Assembly (NCBI GenBank): GCA_016190585.1
Contig: JACPQH010000105.1
Location: 1 to 11,553, forward strand
DNA length: 11,553 bases
Direction: 5' to 3'
From: Chloroflexota bacterium
GTDB lineage: Bacteria > Chloroflexota > Dehalococcoidia > Dehalococcoidales > RBG-16-60-22
Of the stretch, positions 1,660 through 6,021 are shown piece after piece. The position numbers were made by a program, and so were the translations under genes. Numbering within the stretch: the stretch's first letter is position 1; the number at the start of each line of letters is the position of its first letter. Under the pieces are notes generated by a model. That model ran no database searches, was not told the origin of the DNA, and worked only from the letters and a program-made list of their open reading frames with translations.

Positions 1660-2538
1660 ATGAATGACCCGGCGCTGCCTGAAAGGGAGCTTGACCGGAT
1701 TATCGCGGGCGCTCTCGCTGAGGACGCCGTCGGCAACGACGTCACTACCCGGCTGCTCATCGCGGCTGGTTTGACCGGCAGCGGCGCCGTTCTCAGCAAG
1801 GACGAGGGCATCGCCTGCGGCCTGGAGGTCGCGCGGCGGGTTTTCCTCAAGATTGATCCCGGCCTGCTGACGCAGACCCTGGTGAAGGACGGCGAGGCCG
1901 TCAGGCCGGGCGACAAGCTGATGACGGTCTCCGGCCGCCTGGCCGGCATCCTCTCCGGGGAGAGGGTAACTCTCAACTTCCTGCAGCGGCTCAGCGGCAT
2001 AGCCACCCTGACCTCGAGGTTCGTGGAGCAAGTCTCCGGCTATAATGTCTCCATCTATGATACCCGGAAAACAACCCCGGGGCTGAGAACGCTGGAGAAA
2101 TACGCCGTGCGGATGGGCCGCGGCCAGAACCACCGTCTCGACCTGGCTGACGGCGTCCTTATCAAGGACAATCACCTGGCCGTCCTGCGCAAATTGGGGA
2201 TGACGCTGCCGGACATAGTCTCCCGCGCGAAACTCGGGGCGCCGCCGGGTCTGCGCGTTGAAGTCGAGGTCACCAGCATCAAAGAGGCGCTTGAAGCCGC
2301 CGGCGCCGGCGCCGATATCATTATGCTGGACAACATGAGCCTGGAGGACATGAAGGAGGCGGTAACCCTGATCGCGGGACGCGCCCTGGTAGAGGCCTCG
2401 GGGGGGATTGACCTTTCCAACGTCCGCAAGGTCGCCATGACCGGGGTTAACATAATATCAATCGGCGCCCTGACCCACTCCTACCGGTCCTTGAACATGA
2501 GCCTGGAAATCGACCCCGGCTCGGTTAAGTCCGGCTAG
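1660..2538 (+). CDS. nadC: nicotinate-nucleotide pyrophosphorylase (carboxylating), quinolinate phosphoribosyltransferase
   Basis: Converts quinolinate and PRPP to nicotinate mononucleotide, CO2 and pyrophosphate in NAD synthesis; cytoplasmic. The 292 aa product has the family hallmarks: DTRKTTPGLR at 134-143, EKYAVRMGRGQNHR at 146-159, the catalytic-lysine segment GVLIKDNHL at 165-173, EVEV at 201-204, the phosphate-binding region IIMLDNM at 220-226, and EASGGI at 245-250. I chose ATG 1660, which gives the normal NadC N-terminus and follows the yajC stop by 4 bases. An in-frame start at 1615 would overlap yajC by 41 bases and add 15 unrelated residues. No nadA or nadB is visible nearby. The stop codon interlocks with that of the convergent cbiO gene, so no terminator can lie between them. 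Confidence 0.96.
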   Translation: MNDPALPERELDRIIAGALAEDAVGNDVTTRLLIAAGLTGSGAVLSKDEGIACGLEVARRVFLKIDPGLLTQTLVKDGEAVRPGDKLMTVSGRLAGILSGERVTLNFLQRLSGIATLTSRFVEQVSGYNVSIYDTRKTTPGLRTLEKYAVRMGRGQNHRLDLADGVLIKDNHLAVLRKLGMTLPDIVSRAKLGAPPGLRVEVEVTSIKEALEAAGAGADIIMLDNMSLEDMKEAVTLIAGRALVEASGGIDLSNVRKVAMTGVNIISIGALTHSYRSLNMSLEIDPGSVKSG

Positions 2539-3266
2539 GCGCGCTCGCCGAAAAGCAGGCCGTGAGCCGCGAGCAGCGGACGGTCTTCCAGGATTTGAGC
2601 CGCCGGGCCGTCCGCGACAATTCGTCCCCCGTCCAGCACCACCACCCGCCGGCACAGCTCTTTCACCAGGCCGAGCTCATGAGTGGCGATAACCTTGGTC
2701 ACCGGCAAACCCCGGAGCAAACGGGTGAGGTTCCACTGGGCGGCGGGGTCAAGGTTGCTGGTCGGCTCGTCAAGGACGAGAATATCCGGGTCCATGGACA
2801 GCACGGTCGCCAGGGCGACTCTTTTCTTTTCCCCGAGGCTGAGGTGGTGCGGTGAACGTGCCTCGTAGCCCCGGAGACCGACCTCCCCGAGGGCGCGGGA
2901 CACCGCCCGCCGCACCTCGTCCTGGCTGTAGCCCAGGTTCACCGGCCCGAAGGCGACATCGTCGAAAACCGTGGCCGAGAAAAGCTGGTCGTCCGGGTCC
3001 TGGAAGACCAGGCCGGTACGGCGGCGAATCTCCTTGAGGTTGGCCGGCTCGGTCGTCATGGCGAAGACCCTGACGTGACCGTTGCTGCGCAACACGCCGT
3101 TCAGATGCAGCAGCAGCGTTGACTTACCGGCGCCGTTGGGACCGATGAGGCCGACCGATTCCCCGCGGCGGATGGTCAGGTTGATACCGTCGAGGGCCGG
3201 CTGGCCGTCGGGAAACGAGAAAGACAGGGCCTCGATTTTAACGATTACTTCAACGGGCTCAGGCAT
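2535..3266 (-). CDS. cbiO: energy-coupling factor ATPase of nickel/cobalt ECF transporter
   Basis: Cytoplasmic ATP-binding subunit that powers CbiMNQO-type uptake of nickel or cobalt. With the start at 3266 the protein is 243 aa. Motifs: Walker A GPNGAGKST (42-50), Q-loop FQDPDDQLF (88-96, typical of ECF ATPases), ABC signature LSLGEKKR (142-149), Walker B DILVLDE (161-167), and the switch histidine H196. ATG 3266 overlaps the cbiQ stop by 8 bases, implying translational coupling. The frame stays open further upstream to 3494, but that extension lies inside cbiQ and has no ABC-family similarity. Last gene of the cbiM-N-Q-O operon. The symbol follows the CbiO family; the substrate could equally be nickel (NikO). 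Confidence 0.95.
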   Translation of the reverse strand: MPEPVEVIVKIEALSFSFPDGQPALDGINLTIRRGESVGLIGPNGAGKSTLLLHLNGVLRSNGHVRVFAMTTEPANLKEIRRRTGLVFQDPDDQLFSATVFDDVAFGPVNLGYSQDEVRRAVSRALGEVGLRGYEARSPHHLSLGEKKRVALATVLSMDPDILVLDEPTSNLDPAAQWNLTRLLRGLPVTKVIATHELGLVKELCRRVVVLDGGRIVADGPAAQILEDRPLLAAHGLLFGERA

Positions 3267-4035
3267 AGTGGGTACCCAGATACACGGCGAGGATAGCGGC
3301 CACAAGGCACAGGGTGAATATGGTATCGGCCGGCCGGAGGGAAGTCCCGCCGGATGCCCGGCAACTGCCGTCAAAACCGCGGGAGAGCATGGCGGCGTAG
3401 ACGCGCTCACCGCGCTCATAGCTCCGGATGAAAAGAGAGCCGATGATGTTGCCCAGGGTTCGCAACTTCCACAGCCGGGTACCGCCGAAATCACGACTTT
3501 CCCGCGCCTGCTTCAGGCGCAGCACCTCGTCCGTCAGGATAAAGATGTAGCGGTACATGAAAGACAGCACCATGACCATCACCCGCGGCATCCCCAGTGT
3601 TTCCATGCCGGACAGCAGGGCGGTTATGCGGGTCGTCGAGATGAGGAGGACGAGACTTATCATCGAGAGCCAGGCCCGGGCCATAACGGTCAATAGCGCC
3701 GCCAGTCCCTGGTAGGTGGCTGAGACGCTCCAGGCACCGAGCGGCACCGTGACCGCGGGCTCGCCGGGCTTGAAGAATGGCAGGAACAGGGCAACCATGA
3801 GCACGAAGGGCATAACGGCCAGGGAGCGTTTCAGAACGTAGAGCGGGGGCACGCGGGCCAGCCAGGCTAGCGCGGCCAGGATAAGCAGGTAGGCAAGGAA
3901 AGGCCGCCAGGACAGAAACGGCGTGATGTTGACTGCCAGGACGAAAATAACGGTAACAACCAGCTTCACCCCGGGATGGCGCCGGTGAATGACGCTGTGG
4001 CGGTCGCTGTACCTGTCCAGGAAGCTGTGTCTCAT
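3259..4035 (-). CDS. cbiQ: ECF transporter transmembrane subunit CbiQ (nickel/cobalt)
   Basis: Integral membrane coupling subunit (EcfT family) that links the CbiO ATPase to the CbiM substrate-binding subunit. The 258 aa product has several hydrophobic spans (about 23-40, 45-61, 72-88, 107-135 and 236-253). It also has the two short cytoplasmic arginine motifs of EcfT proteins: ARESRDFGG at 177-185 and AMLSRGFDG at 215-223. ATG 4035 was chosen because the product then begins with the family-like RHSFLDRYSDRHS; an in-frame start at 4095 would overlap the upstream cbiN gene. The gene starts 4 bases after the cbiN stop and its own end overlaps cbiO by 8 bases. Confidence 0.93.
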   Translation of the reverse strand: MRHSFLDRYSDRHSVIHRRHPGVKLVVTVIFVLAVNITPFLSWRPFLAYLLILAALAWLARVPPLYVLKRSLAVMPFVLMVALFLPFFKPGEPAVTVPLGAWSVSATYQGLAALLTVMARAWLSMISLVLLISTTRITALLSGMETLGMPRVMVMVLSFMYRYIFILTDEVLRLKQARESRDFGGTRLWKLRTLGNIIGSLFIRSYERGERVYAAMLSRGFDGSCRASGGTSLRPADTIFTLCLVAAILAVYLGTHYA

Positions 4036-4039
4036 GTTA

Positions 4040-4327
4040 TTACGCTCGCTTCGGTCGCCGGGCCAGCAACCGGGCCAGGCTGTAGGCGGCCGCAAACATC
4101 AGAAGGGTCCCGGTAACGCCGGCGAGAATCGTGGCCGCCGTTTCGTTCTCGACGCCCGGGAAGAGATAGTCCGAGATGACCCGGAACGGTGCGGGACGCG
4201 CCAGCGCGAGGAAGCCCTGGTCTTCGGCCACCCGCTCCAGGCCGTCAGGCTGGGAGGAGGCGAGGGGGGATATTATCGCCAGCGCCAGGCAGATACCCAG
4301 GGTAATCAGCCACCATTTTGTTCTCAT
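4040..4327 (-). CDS. PDGLE-domain cobalt/nickel transport accessory protein (CbiN/NikN-like)
   Basis: Small membrane component of the ECF metal transporter. The 95 aa product has an N-terminal span (about 5-20), an extracytoplasmic loop starting with the diagnostic PDGLE motif (27-31) and containing FPGVENE (56-62), a second span (about 66-86) and a basic tail. This is the PDGLE family, found in nickel- and cobalt-type transporters either as a separate protein or fused to the M subunit; it is not a classical CbiN sequence. The start at 4327 has an AAGGTG Shine-Dalgarno site at 4333-4338, inside the end of cbiM, and begins 2 bases after the cbiM stop. The PDGLE type leans toward nickel, but the sequence alone does not settle the substrate. 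Confidence 0.88.
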   Translation of the reverse strand: MRTKWWLITLGICLALAIISPLASSQPDGLERVAEDQGFLALARPAPFRVISDYLFPGVENETAATILAGVTGTLLMFAAAYSLARLLARRPKRA

Positions 4328-4329
4328 CG

Positions 4330-4968
4330 TTACACCTTCTGCGCCTGAAGCAGGTCGGCGCGCCTGGTCTGCACCAGGCCCAGTACGGCGGCGGTTATCA
4401 GACCCTCACCGATGCCGATAAGGGAATAAAAACCGGTCATGGCCGGCAGGACGAGAGGCAAGGGCGAGGCGCCGGACAGGGCGAGCTCAAGCGCGGTCGC
4501 CGCGGCGGCGGTCATCACGGAAACCCAGCCGGCGGCGAAGGCCGCGGACATTTTGCCTTTATGACTGTCGCGCGCCAGCCTGGCAGACAGGCGGTAGACT
4601 CCGTGGGCCGTCAGGGTAGCGATAACCCCCATGTTGAGAATGTTCGCCCCCAGCGCCAGCAGGCCGCCGTCCTGGAAAATCAGGCTCTGGGCGATAACGA
4701 CGCTGCTCATGACCAGCACCGCCGACCATGGCCCGAGCAGGATGGCGGCCAGCCCGGCCCCCAGCACGTGGCCGGACGTGCCGGCGAAGACCGGGAAGTT
4801 GAGCATCTGAATGGCGAAGATAAAAGCCGCCAGGACGCCCATCAGGGGCACCTGTTTTTCCTGGAGACGGCGGTTGGTCTGTTTGACGGCGACGGTGATG
4901 GCGGTCACCGAAACCGCCCCGGTGGCGGCTACGGCGGGGATGCTAAGCAGCCCGTCCGGTATGTGCAT
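4330..4968 (-). CDS. cbiM: substrate-binding membrane subunit of nickel/cobalt ECF transporter (CbiM/NikM)
   Basis: S component that binds and translocates Ni2+ or Co2+. The 212 aa protein opens with MHIPDG, whose Met1 amine and His2 form the metal site in the family. The third known ligand is present as H67 in the GTSGHVLG segment (63-70), the same number as in the structurally studied NikM2, as I recall it. Several hydrophobic spans follow. The start is fixed because MHIPDG must be N-terminal; a GGAGG site lies at 4973-4977 just upstream. First gene of the transporter operon, 55 bases downstream of the fur-family gene. The spacer between them holds an array of TGCA elements that is a candidate operator. 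The nickel versus cobalt choice is unresolved; context favours nickel. Confidence 0.94.
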   Translation of the reverse strand: MHIPDGLLSIPAVAATGAVSVTAITVAVKQTNRRLQEKQVPLMGVLAAFIFAIQMLNFPVFAGTSGHVLGAGLAAILLGPWSAVLVMSSVVIAQSLIFQDGGLLALGANILNMGVIATLTAHGVYRLSARLARDSHKGKMSAAFAAGWVSVMTAAAATALELALSGASPLPLVLPAMTGFYSLIGIGEGLITAAVLGLVQTRRADLLQAQKV

Positions 4969-4983
4969 ATCGCCTCCACATCA

Positions 4984-5009
4984 AGATGCACCTGCAACAA
5001 TATGCATCT
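4984..5009 (-). promoter_or_regulatory. candidate Fur-family operator in the cbiM leader
   Basis: Perfect inverted repeat AGATGCA (4984-4990) / TGCATCT (5003-5009) with 12 bases between. On the cbiM sense strand it contains TGCATATTGTTGCA (5006-4993) followed by a further TGCA (4990-4987), giving GCA-N7-GCA-N3-GCA. The same spacing recurs upstream of fur. A TTTAAT that could serve as a -10 element lies just upstream on the same strand, but I see no convincing -35. A repressor bound here would cover the start region of a cbiM transcript. Function is inferred. Confidence 0.5.
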
Positions 5010-5023
5010 ACGATTAAAAAATT

Positions 5024-5446
5024 TTATTTGCACCGGGTACAGCGCCCGAATATCGCCAGGTGGCTCAAATCGGCCTCAAAGCCGTACCCGCCCAGCAGGG
5101 CGGCTTTAAGCGGGTGCAGGATCGATTCCTCGAGGTCGACGACATGGCCGCACTTCTGGCAGACGAGGTGATGGTGACGGCCGCGGTGGGCGGGGTGATA
5201 TTTCACCCGGCCGCCGCCGAGGTCGGTTTTCGTTACCAGCCCGAGTCTTTCCAGCAGGTCCAGCGTCCGGTAGATGGTCGAGATATTAACATGGGGGTAA
5301 CGCCGCACGATCTGGGAGTGTATCTCCTCGGCGCTGATATGGTTGGTGCTTGCCTCGATAGCCTCCAGGACCATGGTGCGCTGGGGCGTCAGGCGGTAGC
5401 CCTTCTCGCTAAGCTCGCGTATGATTTGCCGGGTGTTGTCCACCAT
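5024..5446 (-). CDS. Fur-family metal-responsive transcriptional repressor, possibly nickel-responsive (Nur-like)
   Basis: DNA-binding metalloregulator of 140 aa. The winged-helix domain (about 1-84) contains RLTPQR (18-23) and the recognition-helix region NISTIYRTLDLLERLGL (54-70). The dimerisation domain has a structural zinc site C96xxC99 with C136xxC139. Likely sensory-site residues are H36, H84, H91 and H93. By hand alignment H84 sits where E. coli Fur has Glu81, so the site would be all-histidine, closer to Nur or Zur than to iron Fur. ATG 5446 follows GGAGA with suitable spacing. It lies immediately upstream of, and on the same strand as, the cbiMNQO-type operon. Its own promoter overlaps a TTGCAA-N4-TTGCAA palindrome resembling the element in the cbiM leader, suggesting autoregulation. 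The family call is firm; the sensed metal is inference. Confidence 0.93.
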   Translation of the reverse strand: MVDNTRQIIRELSEKGYRLTPQRTMVLEAIEASTNHISAEEIHSQIVRRYPHVNISTIYRTLDLLERLGLVTKTDLGGGRVKYHPAHRGRHHHLVCQKCGHVVDLEESILHPLKAALLGGYGFEADLSHLAIFGRCTRCK

Positions 5447-5519
5447 TTATCTCCAGGTCTGCTCAAGGCGAGTACCGGCGAGGCATCGGCGTTGTGCCGG
5501 GACGTAACCGCTAACCAGC

Positions 5520-5548
5520 ACTATAGCATGAGCGGGAGAATATTGCAA
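5520..5548 (-). promoter_or_regulatory. promoter of the fur-family gene
   Basis: On the minus strand a -35-like TTGCAA (5548-5543) is followed 17 bases later by TATAGT (5525-5520), five of six matches to the -10 consensus and preceded by TGC as in an extended -10. The predicted transcript starts near 5513, leaving a leader of about 65 bases before ATG 5446. The -35 is one half of the adjacent TTGCAA palindrome. Confidence 0.6.
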
Positions 5549-5572
5549 GCTGTTGCAATTGCCTATAATTGC
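5543..5572 (-). promoter_or_regulatory. candidate autoregulatory operator, TTGCAA palindrome plus phased TTGC repeats
   Basis: TTGCAA (5543-5548), GCTG, TTGCAA (5553-5558), then two more TTGC at 5559 and 5569. On the fur sense strand the GCA elements are spaced 10, 6 and 10 bases apart; the first two spacings are the same as in the cbiM leader. The palindrome resembles the Nur box of Streptomyces (TTGCAA-N5-TTGCAA as I recall it) with a spacer one base shorter. Overlap with the -35 element suggests repression. Binding is inferred. Confidence 0.5.
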
Positions 5573-6021
5573 GAATTGATTTCCCGGCTGTCGAGCATCA
5601 GGGTGACCGGGCCGTCGTTGAGAATCTCGACCAGCATTTGCTGCTGGAAACGGCCGGTCGCCACCCTGAGACCGCTCAGGCGGCCCTGCTCCACGAAATA
5701 GTTGAAAAGCCGCTCGGCTTCGGCCGGCGGCGCCGCCGCGGTAAAGCTCGGGCGCCGGCCCTTCCTGGCTTCCGCCAGCAGGGTGAACTGGCTGATGATT
5801 AGCAGCTCGCCGCCGGCGTCCAGCACCGAGAGATTGAACTTGCCGGCGGCGTCGCCAAAGATGCGCAGGTTGACTATCTTCCGGGCGAGCAGCCCGGCGT
5901 CCTTCTCGGTATCGCCGGCAGCGACGCCCAGGAGTATCACAAGCCCGGGCCCGATACGGCCTACCGTCTCCCCCGAGACGCTGACCGCGGCCCGGGTCAC
6001 TCTCTGGAGCAGCGCCTTCAC
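5563..6021 (-). CDS. dtd: D-aminoacyl-tRNA deacylase (DTD)
   Basis: Proofreading enzyme that hydrolyses D-amino acids wrongly attached to tRNA; cytoplasmic homodimer. The 152 aa product matches the family from end to end. It has the N-terminal LQRVTRAAVSVSGE, the SQFTL active-site motif (77-81), KGRRPSF (87-93), the cross-subunit Gly-Pro motif in NDGPVT (135-140), and the normal C-terminal MLDSRE followed by a short tail. The only suitable start is GTG 6021, one base after the fmdB stop, so translation is probably coupled; no independent Shine-Dalgarno site is evident. The stop lies just before the operator region of the fur-family gene, and some readthrough into fur is possible since no terminator hairpin is visible. 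Confidence 0.95.
   Translation of the reverse strand: MKALLQRVTRAAVSVSGETVGRIGPGLVILLGVAAGDTEKDAGLLARKIVNLRIFGDAAGKFNLSVLDAGGELLIISQFTLLAEARKGRRPSFTAAAPPAEAERLFNYFVEQGRLSGLRVATGRFQQQMLVEILNDGPVTLMLDSREINSQL

Follow-up and report, generated by a model that had tools for sequence, protein, structure and literature searches.

The locus analyzed here raises the question of how metal uptake is controlled in an uncultured group of Chloroflexota related to the pollutant-eating Dehalococcoides. On the minus strand of the window (the whole stretch of 11,553 bases that was analyzed), the gene order is dtd, a gene for a 140-aa Fur-family protein (5446-5024), cbiM, a PDGLE-domain gene, cbiQ, and cbiO (Table 1). 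Does the Fur-family protein regulate itself and the importer, from which DNA site, and in response to which metal? Fur-family nickel sensing has been described for actinobacterial Nur; among the open-licence papers listed in literature searches, none points, by its title or abstract opening, to a Nur-like circuit in Chloroflexota. The reading favored here, which the sequences make quite probable, is that the protein represses both its own gene and nickel(/cobalt) uptake in a Nur-like manner, from an operator of new layout, nickel being the most likely metal and cobalt the runner-up. The upstream gene dtd is a conserved neighbor of fur in many relatives and its final bases are overlapped by the fur array; it is outside the circuit.

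Table 1. Coordinates of the genes and predicted regulatory features in the window
Feature	Coordinates	Strand	Support
Fur-family regulator gene (fur), Nur-like, 140 aa	5024..5446	-	PF01475, 102 bits; 3EYY (Nur) is the best solved relative and first fold match
Candidate operator array, fur leader: TTGCAA-GCTG-TTGCAA (5543-5558, plus strand) abutting TTGCCT-ATAA-TTGCGA (imperfect; 5559-5574)	5541..5576	-	Matrix score 40.4; alignment A2
Predicted fur promoter: -35 TTGCAA (5548-5543, gene-proximal operator half), 17 bp, TATAGT (5525-5520)	5520..5548	-	
Candidate operator array, cbiM leader: GATGCA-TATT-GTTGCA abutting GGTGCA-TCTT-GATGTG	4974..5009	-	Matrix score 19.1; alignment A2
Conserved T-tract, sense-strand TTTTTT, lying after the fur stop and ahead of the cbiM operator	5016..5021	-	
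cbiM/nikM, substrate-specific component of a Ni/Co ECF transporter	4330..4968	-	PF01891, 212 bits
Small PDGLE-domain component, NikN/CbiN-like	4040..4327	-	PF13190, 55.6 bits, sole Pfam match; CbiN-named NCBIfam matches weak, under cut-off
cbiQ, ORF as listed; real start probably slightly inside	3259..4095	-	TIGR02454, 166 bits, above cut-off
cbiO ATPase, ORF as listed; real start probably inside	2535..3494	-	PF00005, 101 bits
dtd, D-aminoacyl-tRNA deacylase, upstream neighbor	5563..6021	-	TIGR00256, 173 bits

Two copies of one array in the window

The first-pass annotation of this DNA had reported the array GCA-N7-GCA-N3-GCA in the leaders of both fur and cbiM. On the minus strand, GCA is indeed the reading at all seven listed positions (5005, 4995, and 4989 before cbiM; 5572, 5562, 5556, and 5546 before fur), and the three-triplet array occurs exactly twice in the 11,553 bases, both strands counted, at 5572 and 5005 on the minus strand. 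The TGCA-N6-TGCA core likewise occupies two places, 4993-5006 and 5544-5557, identical at 11 of 14 positions, as had been described. The cbiM site does lie within an inverted repeat, AGATGCA...TGCATCT, with perfect 7-bp arms, and the fur site was rightly said to overlap the -35 element, since the operator half TTGCAA (minus strand, 5548-5543) is followed 17 bp on by TATAGT.

A weight matrix built from relatives only, with the window left out, scores these places at 40.4 (fur) and 19.1 (cbiM); other registers at the same two places score 15.0, 13.8, 0.4, and lower, and no further place in the window exceeds -0.6. The two window arrays are more than chance. Both are copies of one element of ~32 bp, in mutually opposite orientations, and the cbiM copy is a weak member whose last box reads GATGTG. 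The shape proposed earlier stands with a refinement: the GCA and TGCA spacing was right, and the element is a double palindrome instead of a single site, with the fourth GCA of the fur leader (5546) belonging to the last box of its array.

Conservation of the array in related genomes

Relatives were represented by the best 80 of 583 loci, from which up to 220 bases upstream and 160 bases downstream of each fur match were taken; regions shorter than 100 bases (3 upstream, 1 downstream) were dropped, leaving 77 upstream and 79 downstream regions. As controls, the same loci supplied 3632 chunks, each 220 bases long, which is more than the downstream regions. Chloroflexota account for 79 of the 80 loci and Actinobacteria for 1; among the protein relatives listed, the four that have an organism in the source name are assigned to Chloroflexota (3) and Dehalococcoidales (1).

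Lack of the spacing in orthologous leaders had been named in the first-pass annotation as an argument against an operator. In these 80 loci, TGCA-N6-TGCA is found beside fur far above the control rate (35/77 upstream, 27/79 downstream, 20/3632 in controls), as are GCA-N7-GCA-N3-GCA on either strand (17/77, 21/79, and 17/3632) and the N4 spacing TGCAA-N4-TTGCA (34/77, 18/79, and 11/3632). The spacing of the Nur box, TGCAA-N5-TTGCA, is nearly absent (1/77 upstream, 0/79 downstream). When TGCA gaps from 0 to 24 were scanned in the same best 80 of 583 loci, solely gaps 2, 6, 12, and 22 were enriched (upstream/downstream counts of 12/15, 35/27, 29/15, and 6/4), with 0 to 3 occurrences at each remaining gap, which implies a single array with TGCA at 0, 10, 16, and 26. 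The 35 upstream and 29 downstream copies represent one asymmetric array in opposite orientations. Its consensus is TATTGCAAnTAGTTGCAATTGCAATnAATTGCAA (ungapped alignment A2 of 40 copies, including the window's two; set R1 consists of 38 copies chosen out of 80 that scored at least 20 with a matrix trained on all 80 loci, plus the window's two). The element can be described as two abutting 16-bp palindromes, TTGCAA-N4-TTGCAA|TTGCAA-N4-TTGCAA, each of which would be expected to accept one dimer.

Specificity was estimated by cross-validation, with matrices trained on half the loci and the other half scored, the halves sharing close relatives. At a score of at least 18, the upstream copy was recovered in 56 and the downstream copy in 30 of the best 80 of 583 loci, compared with 22 hits elsewhere on both strands of the same loci (0.89 Mb). 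Fourteen of these 22 lie within ~1 kb behind fur, 3 precede trmO (L017), and 5 are found in L031 and L043, 3.6 to 3.8 kb behind fur. Fourteen of the 80 fur loci have no copy scoring at least 13 with a matrix trained on all 80 loci. In 6 of those 14 genomes (L036, L040, L052, L053, L065, and L066) the operator is found elsewhere, in front of cbiM, NikL-cbiM, ZnuA-type, or FecB-type genes; in the other 8 it was found nowhere in the genome at E ≤ 0.05.

When 400 Chloroflexota genomes were scanned with a sequence-only model of the operator (E ≤ 1e-3), 25 had matches, including 4 that had supplied training copies. By manual tally, each of the 25 genomes has at least one copy next to either a fur relative or a gene of the metal-uptake type, a class taken to include FmdE and TrmO. 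At E ≤ 1e-30, the window protein is matched in 86 of the 400 genomes overall and in 24 of the 25 with the operator (hypergeometric P = 1.2e-16, both searches presumably having used the same 400-genome draw), some of the 24 being possible paralogues, given identities down to 39% and a match in G078 that lies away from the operator. The 25th genome, G209, has a weaker fur match that adjoins its operator (L207). Equally good hits at unrelated genes, another argument against an operator in the first-pass annotation, are few; most hits precede metal-uptake-type genes, with some unexplained ones left in L031, L187, and L227. The off-locus copy in L031 has no recognizable metal gene.

Good off-locus copies without a recognizable metal gene adjoining are also seen at L187:1983-2018 (G310) and L227:118-212 (G072); L227 holds two copies, near a gene for a zinc-ribbon-like protein. 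As a target finder, the exact 14-mer TGCAA-N4-TTGCA was rejected: it has hits in 198 of 294 genomes of the class and the control pattern is frequent too, so it is too unspecific for naming targets.

Fit of the array to promoters

In 40 of 55 fur leaders, the window's among them, a hexamer matching TATAAT in at least 5 of 6 positions starts exactly 17 bp past the gene-proximal TTGCAn; each of the other spacings from 12 to 23 is represented by 2 leaders at most. Before fur, this gene-proximal half is the -35 element. Off-locus copies were found on or near a promoter matching TTGACA/TATAAT in at least 10 of 12 positions in 10 of 15 hand-picked cases (L187, L220-L222, L227, L246, and L031, for example, were left out), three of the 10 being perfect; these counts are not independent, as L236, L238, and L240 are orthologues, and so are L234 and L242. 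The promoter score of L249 was reached in 9 of 200 shuffles. Both the -35 overlap and the off-locus promoters would fit repression by occlusion. For the 40 transporter-side copies behind fur, no sigma-70 promoter was found at a fixed offset, the best offset having a match of at least 5/6 to TATAAT in 8 of 40.

A promoter or RNA function for the array, such as UP element, -35 variant, or attenuator, in place of an operator is highly improbable. The coincidence of one half-site with the fur -35 and the T-tract before transporter-side copies could be taken that way; however, the element is kept in both orientations, both at the -10 of near-consensus promoters and as a -35, and it accompanies the regulator gene across genomes; the hairpins that precede the T-tract are weak (mean z of -0.9). 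An operator remains the preferred reading, and the first-pass proposal of a self-regulated operator of the encoded Fur-family protein gains support from the conserved spacing, the few hits elsewhere, and Nur as the nearest solved protein.

The T-tract itself, TAATTTTTTT, precedes 35 of the 40 transporter-side copies (L001-L080), ends at -10/-9 in 32 of these 35, and is present even where the preceding gene is not fur. A role as terminator after fur was considered and rejected, the hairpins being weak and inconsistent in 27 sequences with at least 6 T, window included.

Genes behind the proposed operator

Targets were surveyed as genes within 350 bases of the 46 non-autoregulatory copies in the best 80 of 583 loci; the matrix was trained on all 80 loci, and some query proteins came from the same loci. 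A transporter gene starts within this distance in 34 of the 46 cases: CbiM in 15, ZnuA-type in 15, and NicO-like in 4. Two of the 34 start farther on, at 255 bases (L033) and 152 bases (L056). The other 12 comprise radical SAM (2), TrmO (2), FmdE (2), and a small unnamed protein (1), with 5 unclassified.

The Dehalococcoides mccartyi-like genome G107 (1,469,720 bp) has four operator places at E ≤ 0.5, one of them at fur itself. A second precedes a NikA-like operon (L234) that encodes a methyltransferase, an SBP_bac_5 protein, two permeases, and two ATPases; the SBP_bac_5 protein scores 160.5 bits with the nickel NikA model versus 155.3 with the oligopeptide model, both under cut-off. Another operon behind the operator encodes FmdE, Peripla_BP_2, FecCD, and an ATPase. 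The fourth copy lies between complex-I/hydrogenase-like genes and a pair of small membrane proteins, the latter recognized by way of sister genomes.

Targets unlinked to fur include the cbiM-PDGLE-cbiQ-cbiO operon of G055, which follows an operator on a separate contig (L189), while NicO comes after fur in that genome. In G184, the operator is followed by a NikL-like gene, which scores 33 bits against a cut-off of 100, and by cbiM (L249); in G027, an operator-bearing cbiM operon is divergent from larB, larE, and larC, all three above their NCBIfam cut-offs (L248); and in G400, the operator precedes a transporter of the HoxN/HupN/NixA family (TIGR00802, 381.5 bits, cut-off 333; L245).

Several other proteins were seen behind the operator. 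The small unnamed membrane-protein pair (L238:3677-4368 and, by position, L236 and L240) has no family hit, and a relative of one of its members stands behind an operator in another lineage (L192:3006-3302). FmdE-domain proteins recur, often with TrmO or FecB/FecCD-type transporters (L235, L246, L248, and L190). A HemN-like radical SAM protein is encoded by the first gene in L006:8489-9721 and L019:8493-9707. In the interval separating fur from a ZnuA-type or cbiM operon, several loci (L021:8491-8706, L192:7388-7606) encode a ~72-aa protein that contains the motif YWIEHN and has weak HTH-like family hits at most.

The predicted regulator protein

The window protein contains the Fur domain (PF01475) with two CxxC structural zinc pairs; among the 46 operator-bearing proteins, C96 and C99 are present in all and C136 and C139 in 45, with one gap. 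Its best solved relative by sequence is Streptomyces coelicolor Nur (3EYY), with 118.7 bits versus 80.3 for the next. A profile search gave Nur 143.4 bits and the next structure 108.6, the solved Zur proteins trailing at 74.6 (2O03) and 69.2 (3MWM), and 3EYY also came first in a fold comparison with a predicted model (pLDDT 85.5). A plasmid search with this protein returned 634 records, all below 60% identity.

We take the M-site histidines of Nur to be H33, H86, H88, and H90, and those of its second nickel site H70, H72, and H126. Nur H33, H81, H88, H90, and H126 are matched here by His36, His84, His91, His93, and His129, which are found in 46, 43, 44, 43, and 42, respectively, of the 46 operator-bearing proteins. 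The four-His M-site is not kept: the position of H86 is occupied by Gly in 37, Ser in 4, Ala in 3, Glu in 2, and His in none of the 46, and His84 could take its place. Neither is the three-His second site, as the positions of H70 and H72 lack His (most commonly E in 29 or K in 11, and D in 33, respectively, of the 46). In total, the two nickel sites of Nur comprise seven histidines, and three of them (H70, H72, and H86) are replaced here, so a Nur-like mode of action has better support than identity with Nur. Judging from its sequence, the regulator probably works like Nur and is not classed as Nur here. The earlier suggestion of a Nur-like circuit outside Actinobacteria fares accordingly, with Nur as the nearest solved protein on one side and the three lost histidines on the other.

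The 12 genomes compared encode 2 to 5 Fur paralogues each. His84 and His129 are common to operator-bearing proteins and Nur; neither residue occurs in the 19 paralogues, one of which has a gap at 129. In a tree without a Zur reference, the 19 paralogues fall into one group with the Fur and PerR references (support 100/98). Nur is placed among the operator-bearing proteins, on a long branch, joined to three operator-less Chloroflexota proteins (98/93). A single clade of operator-bearing regulators was considered; the tree is against it (11 changes).

In the D. mccartyi-like genomes G107, G059, and G023, the regulators (L237, L239, and L241) carry His93 to Tyr and His129 to Asn replacements, and those of G107 and G023 also have His91 replaced by Arg; the operators are conserved all the same. 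Given the loss of these histidines with the operators kept, the D. mccartyi-like protein may be differently triggered or may act as a metal-independent repressor.

Which metal is probably sensed

Nickel is the likelier choice, if by no great stretch: it is favored by the larBEC neighbor, with weaker support from the NikL-like, NikA-like, and NicT-type targets. The small components of such importers differ, CbiN being of the cobalt type and NikN, NikK, and NikL of the nickel type (PMC2667541, excerpt); that of the window is PDGLE, not CbiN, in Pfam, and gets weak CbiN names in NCBIfam. The motif does not name the metal, since TTGCAA N5 boxes are also found beside Zur-like genes in Actinomycetota (L289 and L290).

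The same circuit with cobalt as the sensed metal, its importer supplying corrinoid-dependent metabolism, is rather unlikely, though it has several points in its favor. CbiMQO and NicO/NicT families transport Co as well as Ni, and the best NCBIfam match of the window cbiM is named a cobalt transporter (190.9 bits, below the cut-off of 219). The FmdE/FecBCD target of G107 may, at a guess, be DET1174-DET1176. That locus is a suspected corrinoid transporter (PMC6169038, excerpt). However, the NikL-like, NikA-like, and larBEC neighbors indicate nickel, the first two with scores below cut-off, and the window has no Rfam riboswitch match, a cobalamin riboswitch included, at gathering thresholds.

A Zur-type zinc regulator that also controls CbiM-like importers is a poor candidate, with odds well below those of cobalt. 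ZnuA-type transporters usually carry Zn, Mn, or Fe, and the equal share of ZnuA-type and CbiM operons behind the operator (15 each of 46) speaks for zinc and counts against a simple nickel reading; TTGCAA-N5-TTGCAA also occurs beside Zur-like and ZnuA genes in an actinobacterium (L289). On the other hand, 43 of 46 operator-bearing proteins have His84 at a position where Zur proteins have Cys; Ni/Co-family transporters predominate among the unlinked targets examined; and the solved Zur proteins score far under Nur. Nickel stays the preferred metal.

Predicted circuit and known systems

In the proposed circuit, metal-loaded protein (nickel most likely, cobalt as runner-up) would bind the double palindrome as dimers. 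In the fur leader, the bound array would cover the -35 and turn off the regulator's own gene; in the cbiM leader, it would turn off the CbiM-PDGLE-CbiQ-CbiO importer. At low metal, the protein would release the DNA and uptake would resume. The array, its conservation and spacing, its fit to promoters, and the neighboring genes can be read directly from the DNA; we infer from them that this protein is the one that binds the array, that it represses, and which metal it senses. The weak cbiM copy of the window and the lack of a standard promoter at the transporter-side copies behind fur count against this circuit, as do the 14 fur loci lacking a copy, the copies with no recognizable metal gene beside them, the scatter of operator-bearing proteins over more than one clade, and the histidine losses in the D. 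mccartyi-like proteins.

With S. coelicolor Nur, the system shares a Fur-family regulator and TTGCAA half-sites. The Nur box is tTGCaa-N5-ttGCAA (PMC3919588, excerpt), so the spacer here, N4, is one base shorter, as the first-pass annotation had stated, and two palindromes stand in tandem. With nickel, Nur represses nikABCDE and sodF (PMC7055735, excerpt); the targets in Chloroflexota are mostly ECF and other importers. Unlike in Nur, the regulator gene itself bears the operator, the lineage is Chloroflexota, and residues other than His, mostly E/K, D, and G, stand in place of H70, H72, and H86. The Zur element of Escherichia coli, RNNNYRNNRYNNYRNNNY, is likewise palindromic and roomy enough for two Fur-family dimers (PMC4219657, excerpt), which we interpret as lying 5 bp apart, whereas the repeat in Chloroflexota is 16 bp with TTGC/GCAA half-sites. 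NikR also represses nickel importers, and in E. coli its gene adjoins its target (PMC2667541, excerpt); its box, GTATGA-N16-TCATAC (PMC7055735, excerpt), differs from the Chloroflexota operator. The NikR_C domain was found in none of 33 operator-bearing genomes, which are MAGs of uncertain completeness, compared with 5 of 14 control rings.

A broader reading, tentative and on balance doubtful, is that Chloroflexota, among them the D. mccartyi-like genomes, have a branch of nickel regulation of their own, with a novel operator grammar, a stand-in for NikR, and five importer families. Its grammar, even-centered TTGCAA-N4-TTGCAA every 16 bp, would put two dimers on opposite sides of the helix, and five unrelated families (CbiMQO, NicO/NicT, ZnuABC-like, NikA-like, and FecBCD-like) would come under its control. 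To our knowledge, no Fur-family member has TTGCAA-N4-TTGCAA units repeated every 16 bp. If the circuit holds, Dehalococcoidia, a group relevant to chlorinated-solvent removal, would have a testable regulator of nickel supply, importers of nickel or cobalt could be predicted among the unnamed ones from a single operator, and it would be seen how related Fur-family codes are set apart by one base of spacer.

In Actinomycetota, the N4 operator was found in 0 of 346 genomes at E ≤ 1e-3, a weak test, since no genome there is known to carry it. The N5 Nur box was found in 39 of 346 genomes; of 30 loci examined, 22 have it inside a called ORF, 2 beside Zur-like genes, and 1 before a cbiM homologue, that box itself lying inside a called ORF, which makes the exact N5 scan a poor positive control. 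The two loci with Zur-like genes, L289 and L290, carry TTGCAATATTATTGCAA beside them, L289 with a ZnuA gene as well; TTGCAATATTATTGCAA is present in 6 of the 30 N5 loci, in either direction, and might be an N5-type box of a possible zinc regulator. In another actinomycetote (G769, L285), an N5 Nur-type box, TTGCAACTCGTTTGCAA, lies ~88 bases before a cbiM match of 42% identity.
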